A stretch of 41,553 nucleotides of DNA from a virus, in IMG/VR virus record IMGVR_UViG_3300046003_002417, positions 1 through 41,553 of that record. One strand, written 5' to 3'. Position 1 is the first letter of the stretch. The number at the start of each line of letters is the position of its first letter. Below are positions 28,449 to 33,113 of this stretch, piece by piece. The position numbers were made by a program, and so were the translations under genes. The notes under the pieces were generated by a model, which was given only the letters and a program-made list of their open reading frames with translations, did no database searches and was not told the DNA's origin.

Positions 28449-28756
28449 CCTCTGAAACCAGGTAAATCATCCCAGTCACCGTTCCAATCAGGAGGTAACC
28501 ATGGATTGCTAAAGTCACAATCATACGGTCCTTCTACAGTTAATCTAAATGCATTTGCAAATCTTTTTGCATCTTTTTTTAATTTAAAACTAAACTCTGC
28601 ACTATCTTTACCGTTATCGTCACAATCTTCAATTGAAATAGGAGATATTTCCTTGTCAACCAACCAAGAGATTAACTTAAAATCATCTCCGAGTTTACGA
28701 AAGTCACTATATTCTTTTTCTGTTTCAAATGTATACTTTACAATATATGCTTTCAT
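28445..28756 (-). CDS. Small unknown protein
   Basis: 103 residues: MKAYIVKYTFETEKEYSDFR, then an acidic loop EDCDDNGKDSAEF, FSFKLKKDAKRFANAF and a tail rich in Trp, Pro and Asp (NPWLPPDWNGDWDDLPGF). The FSFKLKKDAKRFANAF segment faintly recalls the FxxExDAxxFxL pattern of the array proteins upstream but lacks the LRW end. Four-base ATGA overlaps join it to both neighbours. Confidence 0.66.
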   Translation of the reverse strand: MKAYIVKYTFETEKEYSDFRKLGDDFKLISWLVDKEISPISIEDCDDNGKDSAEFSFKLKKDAKRFANAFRLTVEGPYDCDFSNPWLPPDWNGDWDDLPGFRG

Positions 28757-29304
28757 CGCGGTTGAACCAATCCTGCTTTCATTAATTTCATGTATGCATC
28801 CTGAACCACAATTGCTTGATGTTCAGCATCTTCTACTGCCTTGTGTGTGGTTGAAGTTTTATATTTTTTGTCTCTAAGACTAACACCGGTGATATCAAAC
28901 AATGTTCGTGTATCTCTGACATCCCCGTAAGACCACGGTGATCTTAAACCAAGTTGTCGCCAAGCATGTTCCATAACCACAATGTCAAATGGTGCTCCAT
29001 GACTCCATGGCTTACCATGATTCCAACAAAAGTCATACAGTTGTTTCATTGCATCACTAAATGATACACGACCTTGATCACCCATAGCTTCTTCAATAGC
29101 TTCTGGACTTTGTTTACCCCACCATTCTAAAGTGGCATCATTGATACTACGATTGTAAATCTCTGTTTGATCTTCAATCGTAGGTCTAATTTCAATCTTG
29201 CTAATAATGCCCTGACCGCGAGGGTCAAACAATACTGCACCAATCGTAAGAATCACACAATCTGGTGTCGTGTTCAAACTTTCAATATCTATCATAATAT
29301 CCAT
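28753..29304 (-). CDS. DEDD-family 3'-5' exonuclease (RNase T / DexA-like)
   Basis: 183 residues. MIDIESLN (D6, E8) is exonuclease motif I. WSHGAPFDIVVME around 100 provides the second conserved Asp region. DVRDTRTLFD and THKAVEDAEHQA near 148-160 give the HxxxxxD motif III of the DEDDh type. Such enzymes trim single-stranded DNA or RNA; the short single-domain size fits the phage RNase-T/Rv2179c-like group better than T4 DexA (227 residues), so RNA is a possible substrate. The start has GAGGAAAT before the ATG, which lies 9 bases after the array. Confidence 0.8.
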   Translation of the reverse strand: MDIMIDIESLNTTPDCVILTIGAVLFDPRGQGIISKIEIRPTIEDQTEIYNRSINDATLEWWGKQSPEAIEEAMGDQGRVSFSDAMKQLYDFCWNHGKPWSHGAPFDIVVMEHAWRQLGLRSPWSYGDVRDTRTLFDITGVSLRDKKYKTSTTHKAVEDAEHQAIVVQDAYMKLMKAGLVQPR

Positions 29305-29313
29305 TTTATTTCC

Positions 29314-29670
29314 TCATTTCTTTAGTATATGCCATATGTATTTTTGTTCAAGGCGCTTAGTAAAAACTTCAACATCGGTTGTGTTATCAAATATAGCACC
29401 TAGTATTTGTGTCTCGTCAAACACCCTACCAACACGCTCAAGATATTCTGTTAGTGTGTCATATCTCAATGTAACCAATAATATTGAACTTAACCACATT
29501 ACATTCCCATCACTTAATATAATTCCAACTGTAGATGATTTAACATTGTCTAACATCATATTAAGCAACAGATGTACTTTGGGGCCATAAACACTTAAAC
29601 CAGTGATATGTTTATTCCAAGTTACTGCATACTTATTGCCTACAACTCGCACATCACACAGATCGGTCAT
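29314..29670 (-). CDS. Small unknown protein at the end of the LRW array (A11)
   Basis: 118 residues from ATG 29670, which overlaps the previous stop as TAATG; an ATG 12 bases upstream is also in frame. Beta-rich: DVRVVGNKYAVTWNKHITGL, VGIILSDGNVMWLSSILLVT, then helical TLTEYLERVGRVFDETQ and DVEVFTKRLEQKYIWHILKK. The end (VEVFxKRLxxxYxWxxLKK) may be a distant relative of the LRW motif. Function unknown. Confidence 0.62.
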   Translation of the reverse strand: MTDLCDVRVVGNKYAVTWNKHITGLSVYGPKVHLLLNMMLDNVKSSTVGIILSDGNVMWLSSILLVTLRYDTLTEYLERVGRVFDETQILGAIFDNTTDVEVFTKRLEQKYIWHILKK

Positions 29671-29945
29671 TACATATACCACATTTCATACATTGTTATA
29701 AACTTAGCATCCCACAACTCTATTATAACACATCCGCTAGCTAAGGAGAAGTCCCAACCATGGTGTCTTTCACCGAAATTTCTTCTCATCCATTTTACTA
29801 GGCTAACTGGATCTTCTTTATGATAACTACAATCTCTTTGGTAGATTGTTTTGCTACCTGATGTTGTTTTACTGTCACGGCAAAGTTTACTACTGGTATA
29901 ATTTTGAATCGGGGCATAATTTCCGCTATATATGATTTTTGCCAT
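29670..29945 (-). CDS. LRW-array protein A10, terminal motif changed
   Basis: 91 residues. An N-terminal Ser/Thr/Lys-rich stretch is followed by SLVKWMRRNFGERHHGWDFS (about 48-67), the WxxxNFG element shared with A2 and A5. It then has a strand VIIELWDAK and the end FITMYEMWYM in place of the usual FxLRW. The ATG lies 8 bases after AGGTGG, which is the Arg-Trp of the preceding gene. Unknown function. Confidence 0.62.
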   Translation of the reverse strand: MAKIIYSGNYAPIQNYTSSKLCRDSKTTSGSKTIYQRDCSYHKEDPVSLVKWMRRNFGERHHGWDFSLASGCVIIELWDAKFITMYEMWYM

Positions 29946-29949
29946 AGTT

Positions 29950-30183
29950 TTACCACCTCAATCTGGCTAAAATGTAATCTCGTTCATATCTAAATTTAAT
30001 TTTAAATAGCCAACAAATCTCATTATGCATCCAAGCATACACACAATGCCTCTCTGATTTTTGTATGTTTGCTATTATCCAATCTATTATCTCTATGCGC
30101 TGTTCAGCTAGGTCATACATATTAAGTTTAATAACTAGTTCATGCCATCCTGGCTTAATATTTTCCCAGTCTATATTCTTCAT
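29950..30183 (-). CDS. LRW-array protein A9
   Basis: 77 residues: EIIDWIIANIQKSERHCVYA (helix with DWxxxN), then ICWLFKIKFRYERDYILARLRW, ending on Trp directly before TAA. The Arg-Trp codons AGG TGG form the ribosome-binding site of A10. It starts in an ATGA overlap with A8. No enzyme motif. Confidence 0.66.
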   Translation of the reverse strand: MKNIDWENIKPGWHELVIKLNMYDLAEQRIEIIDWIIANIQKSERHCVYAWMHNEICWLFKIKFRYERDYILARLRW

Positions 30184-30452
30184 TGAAACCTCAATAAGAA
30201 TATCAAGTATTTTTGTTCGTCCACTATCGTGTAACCATCAGTGATGTTACCGTTGACTAAGATCATCTTTAGTCCATACTTATTTTCAATATAAGTTTCA
30301 AAATCATGGTCATAATAATTTGTCTTATCTTCTTCCATGAATTCTACTCTTGCTTGTTTAAGTAGCTTCCAATACTTCCAACGATTCTTTCTGAAATCTA
30401 TATCAGGATCATCGTGATCATAATCTTGGAATGACTTTGATATATTGGTCAT
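30180..30452 (-). CDS. LRW-array protein A8
   Basis: 90 residues with an acidic N-terminus (FQDYDHDDPDIDFRKNRW), FETYIENKYGLKM and the terminal TIVDEQKYLIFLLRFQ, where Phe replaces Trp. An alternative ATG 6 bases upstream exists; the chosen start makes the ATGA overlap seen throughout the array. The TTGAGG coding Leu-Arg precedes the next ATG by 6 bases. Confidence 0.64.
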   Translation of the reverse strand: MTNISKSFQDYDHDDPDIDFRKNRWKYWKLLKQARVEFMEEDKTNYYDHDFETYIENKYGLKMILVNGNITDGYTIVDEQKYLIFLLRFQ

Positions 30453-30814
30453 GACCATCTCAATGCTGCTATTGTAGCATATTTGGCATGCTTTTGTCTA
30501 ATCTTTATGGTTAATCGGTTCTCGGTAGCATCCCGATCGGCTAGACCCCAGTCCCAATCCCATCCTTGTTTTCCAATATGTTTTTCCATCCAGGGCCTAT
30601 AATGAACGTTTGGATCTGCTGACAACCACTGCTCGTCCGTTTTATATTGATCAATGAATTCTTTAATTATTGGACCATCAGGCCACGCAACATTGATAAC
30701 AACACCGGGAACAAATCTCCACCAGAGTTTTTCGTTGATGGTTAGTCCACAGGGTATCCAATGTGAATATTTTTCCTTCCAAAAGAAAATACCTTTGATG
30801 TTATACTTGCTCAT
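30449..30814 (-). CDS. LRW-array protein A7
   Basis: 121 residues, one of the longest members. The N-terminus is Trp-rich (GIFFWKEKYSHWIPCGLT, EKLWWRF) and may be a fused extra domain. The shared module follows at the end: PWMEKHIGKQGWDWDWG, then LTIKIRQKHAKYATIAALRWS. ATGA overlap with A6; TTGAGATGG before the next start. Confidence 0.65.
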   Translation of the reverse strand: MSKYNIKGIFFWKEKYSHWIPCGLTINEKLWWRFVPGVVINVAWPDGPIIKEFIDQYKTDEQWLSADPNVHYRPWMEKHIGKQGWDWDWGLADRDATENRLTIKIRQKHAKYATIAALRWS

Positions 30815-30996
30815 GTCCACCTCAACTTAAACCAAATAGCATCTTGCTCATCACTAAAAAAGTAATCAATCTGATAAAGATCATAGTGATTGTACCCATC
30901 CTGATGTAGATCATTGGTAACATAACTTGGGGAATGTTTTTTGGCCCAAGCTAATGCTTCCCAAGTCAAATCGTACGGCAATGTAACATACTTCAT
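30811..30996 (-). CDS. LRW-array protein A6 (minimal member)
   Basis: 61 residues, close to the smallest form of the family: MKYVTLPYDLTWEALAWAKK, then a Tyr/His/Asp-rich loop and YQIDYFFSDEQDAIWFKLRW plus a final Thr. This is the clearest example of the terminal consensus (hydrophobic strand, acidic turn, DAxxFxLRW). TTGAGGTGG, coding Leu-Arg-Trp, stands 3 bases before the next ATG, close for a ribosome site but the only candidate. Confidence 0.68.
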   Translation of the reverse strand: MKYVTLPYDLTWEALAWAKKHSPSYVTNDLHQDGYNHYDLYQIDYFFSDEQDAIWFKLRWT

Positions 30997-31238
30997 TCCC
31001 ATCGTAGTAAAAACAAAGTTAAATCTTCATCACGAGTTAATACTATCTCGCTAATTTTACTATTATCTAACCAACGATTGCTACTAGTTTCATCATCATA
31101 GCCTGAGTTGCCAAAATTCTTCTTACACCATTTCTTTACTTCTTTGGTGTCAACATCTTCTTGTCCCTTCCAAGAGATAGTATGTATATTAATTTTGCTG
31201 CCAAAATAGCGTTCTGTTCTGTGTACGAATTTGCTCAT
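30993..31238 (-). CDS. LRW-array protein A5
   Basis: 81 residues: a beta-rich, basic start (HRTERYFGSKINIHTISW), then EVKKWCKKNFGNSGYDDE (the WxxxNFG element) and ISEIVLTRDEDLTLFLLRWE. Here Leu-Arg-Trp is written CTA CGA TGG, so the ribosome-site overlap is lost or weak. ATGA overlaps on both sides. Confidence 0.66.
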   Translation of the reverse strand: MSKFVHRTERYFGSKINIHTISWKGQEDVDTKEVKKWCKKNFGNSGYDDETSSNRWLDNSKISEIVLTRDEDLTLFLLRWE

Positions 31239-31633
31239 GTGAATTTTAATGCTATCATCACAGCATCCCTTTCATTGTTGGTTGCTACGAATACTTGGTC
31301 TTGTTCGTGCCGCATATCATTAATATGAAACTTTCCATCCCATCGATCTCTATACCCGCGGGCAAAGTAATATACTGCACAGTTATTTAACGCTCGGTTA
31401 GGATACATGTACTGCCGAAAGTCTTTACTCGGGTTCCAACCAAATGGGTCAGAAGAATTAAATATCTCAGTGGAGACTGGAAGTATGTATTTGAAATTCA
31501 TAAACATATTTTCAATCGTGCCGGCACCATGTACAACTGTTTCTTCGTACCACTTGCGATGATCGCGGGTTTGTTTGTCTAGCCCAGTACGCCAAGTTAG
31601 ATACTTGTCTACAATGTAGTCAATTATTTGCAT
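31235..31633 (-). CDS. LRW-array protein A4, extended
   Basis: 132 residues. The first ~90 (MQIIDYIVDKYLTWRTG, FKYILPVSTEIFNSSDPFGW, NCAVYYFARGYRDRWDG) are unlike other members. The end DQVFVATNNERDAVMIALKFT keeps the acidic turn and DAxxxAL core with LKF in place of LRW. Linked to A5 by ATGA. No known domain. Confidence 0.62.
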   Translation of the reverse strand: MQIIDYIVDKYLTWRTGLDKQTRDHRKWYEETVVHGAGTIENMFMNFKYILPVSTEIFNSSDPFGWNPSKDFRQYMYPNRALNNCAVYYFARGYRDRWDGKFHINDMRHEQDQVFVATNNERDAVMIALKFT

Positions 31634-31914
31634 AACGCCAGTAACATTTTATATTTGTCATATGCATCAGCCACTGCAGGATACTTTGCACGAATTTGTC
31701 GTTCTTCCTGCTGCTCTCTACTATCTTCCTCTGCACGATTATCCAGACGAACCATAAGCTGAAATGCTCTTACGGGGAGTTCAATCTCTACTCTATCTCT
31801 GGAATCAGTGTAATCTAATGCTCCAAGTGAGGCATGGGGGCTGTTGCGATAATACTGATAATGTATCCTGGCATTATATCGTCTTGTAAAATCTTCAACC
31901 ATTATATTATTCAT
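31624..31914 (-). CDS. Array protein A3 lacking the LRW end
   Basis: 96 residues from ATG 31914 (ATGA overlap; TTGAGGTGG directly upstream), rather than an in-frame ATG at 31935 that would lie upstream of the ribosome site. It is a different type: beta-rich first half (VEIELPVRAFQLMVRLDN) and a charged helix EEDSREQQEERQIRAKYP, ending MLLALCK. It may be an unrelated gene inserted in the array. Confidence 0.6.
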   Translation of the reverse strand: MNNIMVEDFTRRYNARIHYQYYRNSPHASLGALDYTDSRDRVEIELPVRAFQLMVRLDNRAEEDSREQQEERQIRAKYPAVADAYDKYKMLLALCK

Positions 31915-32198
31915 AGCCACCTCAACATGAACCAATTACGATCTGCTTCATTACGGAACCAATATTTACGATCACTGCCTATCCAACAACTATTAGGGGT
32001 TGACCAATCACTATCCCCAAATGTCATTGTTATCCAATCTGCCATTGCATACCACTCAACAGCAGAAAAGTACATTGGTTTAACCCAATAAGGATATTTA
32101 GGGTAAGCGTCAGCATAACCAGTTTCAAGGTGTTTCATGTTATCAGTTTCAATGCAATTAGCCCATCTTGCTGTACTCATGGCGCGTTTCTTTATCAT
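31911..32198 (-). CDS. LRW-array protein A2
   Basis: 95 residues from ATG 32198 (ATGA overlap). Aromatic-rich: YPYWVKPMYFSAVEWYAMAD, then DWITMTFGDSDWSTPNSCW and the terminal YWFRNEADRNWFMLRWL. Its Leu-Arg-Trp codons TTG AGG TGG lie 3 bases before the ATG of A3. Function unknown. Confidence 0.66.
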   Translation of the reverse strand: MIKKRAMSTARWANCIETDNMKHLETGYADAYPKYPYWVKPMYFSAVEWYAMADWITMTFGDSDWSTPNSCWIGSDRKYWFRNEADRNWFMLRWL

Positions 32199-32368
32199 AA
32201 CCATCTCAACGCAAAATATATTGCATTCCTCTCATCATAAAAATAAAAATCCATATAATGTACAGAACAATTAGTGTGAAAATTTTCTCCTTGCACTCCT
32301 AAATTTTCTACTGCCCAAGCATAAGGGTCATTCCAACCTGGGCCGCCTGTAATTGCCGTCCATGGCAT
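32195..32368 (-). CDS. LRW-array protein A1 (first of the array)
   Basis: 57 residues from ATG 32368, just after the stop of the zinc-motif gene: MPWTAITGGPGWNDPYAWAV, ENLGVQGENFHTN and MDFYFYDERNAIYFALRWL. A longer frame from 32428 would read through the end of the upstream gene in another frame and adds residues absent from the similar-sized member A6, so the short start is preferred, although its ribosome site is weak. Confidence 0.6.
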   Translation of the reverse strand: MPWTAITGGPGWNDPYAWAVENLGVQGENFHTNCSVHYMDFYFYDERNAIYFALRWL

Positions 32369-32375
32369 GCGAACT

Positions 32376-33113
32376 CTAGTACCCAGCTTCGCTGAGGGTG
32401 TCTTTAACTCGTTTAGTAAGGTCTGCATCTCGTTTGAACTTTATTGCCCATTGTTCTGGGTTGATATAATCAATGATTAGTTTAACATGTCCTTCATTTA
32501 ATGTATCTAGAAAATGGGTACCACTGTTACTTTGATACAACAACCATGGACTTATCTTACCTGCGGTGATAGCATAACATATTTTATTTACATTCCCGTA
32601 TCTTAAAATATCTTGTGGTTGTATACCTGCATCTTCTGCTAAGTTAATACAATTTCCCACGCTACGATGTATAGCATCAAATGCGTCCTCGTATCGCAAA
32701 TATTCAACAAGATATTTAGTGTATGTACTATCACTGCACCAGTTGTCAATCTTAGTTTGATTCTTCAATAACCAATCAATAAATCTGGGAATGTTAATTG
32801 CATTGATACTGACACAATAGTTACCAAACTTAACAAACGCAATGTAGTATGGGTTCTTAATAAAATCTTCGTGTGCTAGATTTTTTCGTTTTGATGTATT
32901 CTTTTTATAAAAATCTAACCAGCATTGGAATGCAATTCTATTGCCATGATTGTCTTTGTCTAACCATCTGCGTTTCGTTTCACATACATGTCTAAGCGTG
33001 GTTGATTCTTTGAGGAATTCTCTTTTGCAAAACTCGCAACCATACTTCACCGGCTTATCAATTGCCGAGGTCTCGTTCATATTGCTTAAGTTGCTGATCA
33101 GTGATAGTTTCAT
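32376..33113 (-). CDS. Unknown protein with N-terminal C2HC zinc-finger motif
   Basis: 245 residues. Near the N-terminus, CEFCKREF followed by LRHVCETKRRWLDKD gives a Cys-x2-Cys ... His-x2-Cys motif (about residues 26-44). The rest is mainly helical with RLxxxx aromatic blocks (FQCWLDFYKKN, YYIAFVKFGNYCVSIN) and IQPQDILRYGNVNKICYA. It may be a DNA- or RNA-binding regulator, but no known family is recognised. GAGG lies 6 bases before the ATG at 33113, inside the previous gene, giving a 56-base overlap. A start at 33080 is also possible. Confidence 0.66.
   Translation of the reverse strand: MKLSLISNLSNMNETSAIDKPVKYGCEFCKREFLKESTTLRHVCETKRRWLDKDNHGNRIAFQCWLDFYKKNTSKRKNLAHEDFIKNPYYIAFVKFGNYCVSINAINIPRFIDWLLKNQTKIDNWCSDSTYTKYLVEYLRYEDAFDAIHRSVGNCINLAEDAGIQPQDILRYGNVNKICYAITAGKISPWLLYQSNSGTHFLDTLNEGHVKLIIDYINPEQWAIKFKRDADLTKRVKDTLSEAGY

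Follow-up and report, generated by a model that had tools for sequence, protein, structure and literature searches.

A putatively translationally coupled array of small paralogous phage genes with a common C-terminal motif at their junctions

Jumbo phages carry hundreds of small orphan genes, the origin and turnover of which are poorly understood. The coupling of termination to reinitiation at ATGA overlaps is well known (Nat Commun 2019, PMC6728339), and in most prokaryote groups a Shine-Dalgarno (SD) sequence lies within the upstream gene at above or around 50% of these overlaps (PMC6728339). Recombination at short boundary sequences between phage modules is also of a known kind (PMC3029335). 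In mycobacteriophage Island3, the genes of gp67 and gp68 have different bodies and a C-terminal segment that is common in protein and in DNA, and a gene was gained or lost via recombination between ∼50-bp copies (PMC3029335). In T4-type phages, shuffling of genes mediated by PeSLs has been reported (Arbiol 2010 and Comeau 2014, as far as these are cited in PMC4503421). Cyanophage S-PM2 contains an "ORFanage", in which rows of small overlapping orphan genes occur in an order that is rarely conserved (PMC4503421).

The DNA analysed here, which we refer to as the window, is an entire 41.6-kb virus contig (IMG/VR record IMGVR_UViG_3300046003_002417). Its UvsW-type helicase, RNA ligase, primase and DnaB-like genes identify jumbo myophages such as Phosso, Atu_ph07 and PA5oct/Paride as its relatives.

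The array and its recurrence

Between the replication-region gene A0 and a DexA-like exonuclease gene lie eleven small minus-strand genes, A1 to A11 (Table 1), whose coordinates, C-termini and codons are as an initial annotation had given them. Eight of the eleven (A1, A2 and A4 to A9, and not A3, A10 or A11) carry L(R/K)(W/F) at the C-terminus, followed by one further residue or none. Seven of the junctions are 4-nt ATGA overlaps (A1/A2, A2/A3, A4/A5, A5/A6, A6/A7, A7/A8 and A8/A9), and the remaining ones are TAATG (A10/A11), a 10-nt overlap (A3/A4) and a 4-nt gap (A9/A10). Leu-Arg-Trp is encoded as TTG AGG TGG in A2, A6 and A9 and as TTG AGA TGG in A1 and A7, with TTG AGG TTT in A8, TTA AAA TTC in A4 and CTA CGA TGG in A5. 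We refer to the segment that holds these codons and the next start codon as the seam.

Table 1. Genes of the array and its two boundary genes in the window.
Gene	Coordinates	Strand	Length (aa)	C-terminal end	Seam or motif codons	Family	Remarks
A0	32376..33113	-					Left boundary gene, replication-region gene (phrog_11058); query used to fetch 80 loci
A1	32195..32368	-	57	FALRWL	TTGAGATGGTTATGA	0
A2	31911..32198	-	95	FMLRWL	TTGAGGTGGCTATGA	0	97 aa if from 32204
A3	31624..31914	-	96	ALCK		11	Without LRW
A4	31235..31633	-	132	ALKFT	Without SD	29
A5	30993..31238	-	81	LLRWE	CTA CGA TGG	3
A6	30811..30996	-	61	KLRWT	TTGAGGTGGACATGA	12	63 aa if from 31002
A7	30449..30814	-	121	ALRWS	TTGAGATGGTCATGA	9	Weak profile match
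A8	30180..30452	-	90	LLRFQ	TTGAGGTTTCAATGA	2
A9	29950..30183	-	77	RLRW	TTGAGGTGG TAA, then 4-nt gap to A10	1
A10	29670..29945	-	91	MYEMWYM		7
A11	29314..29670	-	118			17	Without motif; last array gene
DexA-like exonuclease	28753..29304	-					Right boundary gene of 44 complete arrays (phrog_255)

In phage Paride (L005), a hypothetical gene directly abuts a polymerase/exonuclease gene and the array is absent; from the gene order, we take this pair as the equivalents of A0 and DexA. Because no array separates the corresponding genes of Paride, the array has the appearance of an island with a fixed position.

Eighty related IMG/VR loci were fetched with A0 alone, so that no selection for the motif was involved. 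The statistics given here come from such neighbour-gene-selected loci, with the seam-selected loci (L086 onwards) left out, and the loci are related to one another, so that the counts are not independent. In the 44 complete arrays the interval between A0 and DexA holds 5-29 small genes. The terminal motif was found in 453 of 623 array genes as against 8 of 853 other genes of the same loci, and 411 of the 453 stand in runs of two or more, as the initial annotation had expected. The 623 genes fall into 67 families that occur in many different orders between loci. Within complete arrays, the motif is present in 295 of 387 genes at other positions and in 4 of 43 last genes, which are drawn from few families only; the family of A10 is commonly final or penultimate. 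When 171 loci are considered, 920 motif genes (median ∼80 aa) form 198 clusters at 40% identity.

A scan of viral contigs for the seam revealed, among the matches listed, arrays in many other large contigs and in varied genome contexts, and the 364-kb record behind L067 contains a second array. In bacterial genomes the exact seam gave four matches, three of them without an array. The fourth is a true array (L206) with 17 motif genes; its contig was assigned to a Bacteroidetes MAG by binning and is possibly of phage origin.

A C-terminal domain apparently common to most motif proteins

The motif proteins follow the common pattern W...E...W.....G.....W....F..E.....F.LRW. The profiles of the A5 and A8 families match with 86.7% probability over 47 columns that cover a helix-hairpin-helix, and the AlphaFold models of A5 (pLDDT 87, bb-a-bb-a) and A8 (pLDDT 77, a-a-bb-a) both end in helix, hairpin and helix, with LRW closing the last helix. 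The initial annotation had taken the end of these proteins for a hydrophobic strand; the L(R/K)(W/F) terminus stands, and in the models it is the end of a C-terminal helix, preceded by a beta hairpin and an acidic cap. From these profiles and models, most motif proteins seem to share one previously unnamed helix-hairpin-helix domain with LRW at the end of its last helix. Other cassettes ride along, and the domain is unproven for some of the motif genes, because profile comparison gave no match to the LRW domain for A3 and A11, no support for A4 against the A5 family, and a weak match only for A7 and A10. A3 is a different cassette riding in the array, and A10, with its pattern W..NFG..W, is possibly a diverged member. 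A1 is paralogous to A6 (39% over 33 aa). The families are under purifying selection, with a median dN/dS of 0.13-0.60 (0.13 for the family of A5).

Searches of Pfam and PHROGs gave no name to single window proteins, and neither database gave a match among 106 diverse members. PADLOC and NCBIfam yielded one or two marginal single matches that we took as chance, and no match was found by a PDB sequence search or by tblastn of three members against 50,697 phages. The best PDB fold matches were to the SUI1/eIF1 fold (Foldseek E 0.05, TM about 0.5; VIA-align Z 5.5-6.2, tied with a GyrA domain); they are below the level of kinship and were not used for function. In the open-licence literature we found no report of the LRW motif in phages.

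Members of the family also occur in cultured jumbo phages. Searching selected records with the profile of A1 identified 24 members in Phosso (PV764938), three in Paride and three in Atu_ph07; these members were found by the profile search only, and not by tblastn. Those of Phosso form ATGA runs ending FKLRW, FKLTW, FKLAW, FKLAI and FKLMM, the Arg being missing in most, and one member stands directly before a polymerase/exonuclease-like gene in the DexA position. In contrast to the arrays of the window and its relatives, these three phages are nearly devoid of the SD seam and the Arg is unconserved. On the basis of these sequences, the helix end is general, and the AGG-coded Arg is confined to lineages that build the SD into the motif. 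That Phosso keeps the helix end, mostly without the Arg, suggests that the ribosome site is the later addition, fitted into a protein motif that already existed. As Phosso is cultured on Sinorhizobium meliloti, the protein family is testable in the laboratory.

The seam as putative translation signal and candidate recombination site

The initial annotation had proposed that the next gene uses the motif codons as its ribosome-binding site. It had named Arg codon usage equal to that elsewhere in the genome, or motif genes standing mostly alone, as grounds for refuting this, and a comparison of Arg codons with and without a following gene as a check. We ran the comparison mechanically and free of gene-caller bias, by scoring the ATG of an open reading frame of at least 40 codons located 3-15 nt past the Arg codon. 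The Arg was AGG in 90 of 190 distinct motif genes with such an ATG (47%) and in 6 of 41 without one (15%; Fisher p = 9e-5), AGG making up 7% of Arg codons elsewhere. The same tendency is seen within family 1 (6/13 with a downstream start, 2/19 without) and family 4 (8/16 and 0/4). CGT, the commonest Arg codon, is nearly gone at the seam, and the spacing is 5 nt in 317 of 384 cases. ATGA junctions account for 302 of 423 motif-gene junctions in arrays as against 94 of 754 non-array junctions.

The proposed bias is therefore present, but dual use alone is ordinary, because intragenic SD sequences before ATGA starts are common both among prokaryotes (PMC6728339) and in the same loci, where SD-like words are found at 40% of non-array ATGA overlaps, about as often as at array seams. 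Among 330 ATGA motif seams, GAGG occurs in 128 (∼40%) and GAGA in 77, so that the SD in the upstream gene is partial and non-universal. Nor does the protein motif depend on the SD: it persists, written in non-SD codons, at genes that have no successor, and it is kept in Phosso. Judged from the codon counts, the signal is real, and its unusual part is the fixed place of the SD inside a recurrent protein motif.

At the DNA level, TTnnTnTTGAG(A/G)TGGnnATGA is kept across unrelated gene bodies and conservation ends at the start codon. For the core TTGAG(A/G)TGGnnATGA, 81 loci have 195 occurrences on the gene strand and none on the opposite strand, with ∼0.3 expected. A family-balanced profile of 33 families anchored at the stop is conserved from -21 to -1, with information near zero past the start codon. 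When loci with flanking genes at least 85% identical were compared, the switch point fell within -24..+3 in 39 of 40 distinct gene indels, two of the 39 (L055 and L049) being uninformative, which leaves ∼37. In the comparison of L014 and L016, the joint ATATTGAGGTGGTCATGAACATTAAG matches both parents across the seam. The longest shared words of at least 16 nt between different families were at the seam in 21 of 28 cases, and L206 carries recent head-to-tail tandem copies. Families re-ordered between loci, gene gains and losses and these tandem copies bear out the earlier suggestion that the module is swapped and duplicated between phages. An analysis of HSP ends placed right ends near stops in 80% and left ends in only 42%, which is why we prefer the gene-indel analysis.

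As expected of recombination at boundary sequences, short DNA is thus shared at the joints and the crossovers lie in shared sequence (39/40), and from these alignments the seam is likely a recombination site. It is not strictly required, because a few events have ATGA alone in common (L013 and L019, L031 and L035). Its role in recombination is likely rather than proven, because selection for working junctions could yield the same breakpoint positions.

Interpretation and comparison with described systems

The reading that we favour, and consider fairly probable, is that of a hypervariable, translationally coupled array of cassettes for small paralogous proteins, with recombination at the seams, which probably serves as a set of early proteins aimed at the host. 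According to this model, most array genes would encode variants of the helix-hairpin-helix domain, with FxL(R/K)(W/F) closing its last helix, as sequence and profiles indicate for the larger families. Where a gene follows, the Leu-Arg-Trp codons are biased towards TTG-AGR-TGG, which places the end of GAGG or GAGA 5 nt ahead of the overlapping ATG. Ribosomes would then be passed from gene to gene by termination and reinitiation at the 4-nt stop-start overlap. The near-identical seams in unrelated bodies would allow recombination to delete, duplicate, import and re-order whole genes, leaving all reading frames and ribosome sites intact. The products may be early host-directed proteins, for instance for takeover or counter-defence, with each phage keeping the set that its hosts demand; such a repertoire would agree with the place of the genes among those for replication, with their small size and rapid turnover, and with the purifying selection on them. 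The term host-interacting proteins, used in the initial annotation, we infer rather than observe.

One may go further and speculate, more tentatively, that the array is a self-propagating operon format, in which a single ∼20-bp segment forms the core of the last helix, provides the next gene's ribosome-binding site and acts as a recombination site, an integron-like role with no dedicated integrase. If so, any cassette could enter the row at any point, be copied there or be lost from it, and would be expressed at once, and the array would give the phage group an evolvable stock of host-directed proteins.

The main rival is ordinary divergence of tandem paralogues from one ancestor, the seam being kept by constraint on the C-terminal helix and by the SD common at ATGA starts, with mosaicism filtered by selection. 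The frequency of SD-like words in the same loci (40%) and in prokaryotes (PMC6728339), the persistence of the motif without SD codons, the junction events sharing ATGA only, and the fact that selection for viable junctions alone would also put breakpoints at gene ends are all in its favour. We nevertheless regard it as rather unlikely, because unrelated bodies carry identical 15-nt seams and the information drops to zero once the start codon is reached, because AGG usage differs according to whether a start lies downstream, and because long shared words are concentrated at seams. It is improbable that LRW is a C-terminal tag for a common partner (a protease, chaperone, phage shell or host complex) with the shared seam as a by-product: the motif does close the protein irrespective of the body, most genes having 0-1 residues beyond it, and Arg or Lys is mostly retained even where no gene follows, but in the AlphaFold models the motif lies within the last helix of the shared domain, its F, L and W are all conserved as a packed core would predict, the Arg varies in Phosso, and one Paride member has a ten-residue tail past the motif.

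Read as a recombining cassette array, the locus provides a searchable domain for a large set of the small orphan genes of jumbo phages and a concrete route to adding small genes without new regulatory DNA. On this reading, a protein motif, a translation signal and a recombination joint also come together at one place, and in the open-licence literature we found no described system that joins all three roles in one coding segment.

Each described system resembles the arrays in part. Like the S-PM2 ORFanage, they are rows of small overlapping orphan genes whose order is rarely kept; the ORFanage itself has no LRW motif or SD seam, many of its genes ending in ND with ATGACTGA overlaps, and we did not count it as a member. 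As with PeSLs, to the extent that PMC4503421 cites them, a repeated regulatory sequence between small genes is linked to shuffling, but PeSLs are promoter stem-loops, whereas the seam is a translation signal located within the genes. A PeSL cassette was rejected, as the overlapping genes leave no room for a promoter stem-loop; sigma-70 promoter-like sites were no more frequent than in shuffles. Like coupled overlapping gene pairs (PMC6728339), the arrays have 4-nt stop-start overlaps, of the ATGA/TGATG type, and an SD in the upstream gene. In those pairs each has its own 3' sequence, whereas in the arrays the SD falls within a recurrent protein motif and keeps its register there through dozens of families. 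The pair of gp67 and gp68 of Island3 is close in kind, as array genes with different bodies share a C-terminal segment and are gained or lost at it (PMC3029335). The Island3 report describes one event and two genes, whereas in the arrays a ∼20-bp segment recurs over up to 29 genes and also carries the ribosome site of the next (PMC3029335).

Additional array sites

The 364-kb contig behind locus L067 carries a second array of small genes mostly ending in L(R/K)(W/F) (an LRW array), at 197-216.5 kb (L207) and on the strand opposite to the first, and more than one array site per genome is therefore possible. A 17-gene LRW array that includes recent duplicates lies on DLXM01000070.1 (L206), which is binned with a Bacteroidetes MAG and may be an unrecognised phage contig.

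Cassettes without LRW and unrelated genes

Gene A3 of the window array and its look-alikes are charged, probably helical cassettes without LRW, carried in the arrays of different phages and bearing a PAVxxAxxxY or KLDMW element close to their end. Some arrays (L059, L061, L062, L072, L063, L050) hold interspersed unrelated genes.

Genes without LRW and other proteins found inside arrays
Feature	Family	Location	Basis of name
A3-type cassette		window 31624-31914	
A3-type cassette		L137:3827-4192	
A3-type cassette		L101:3965-4402	
Radical-SAM-like proteins	24, 26	inside arrays	reading of sequence
Amidotransferase-like protein	28	inside arrays	reading of sequence
HNH-like endonucleases	25, 36	inside arrays	reading of sequence

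Comparison with the S-PM2 ORFanage

In the S-PM2 ORFanage (L202), a cyanophage region for which shuffling was previously reported (PMC4503421), many successive genes have ND as their C-terminal end, with an 8-nt overlap, ATGACTGA, at the junction. This recurrent junction differs from that of the LRW arrays and is without a Shine-Dalgarno site.
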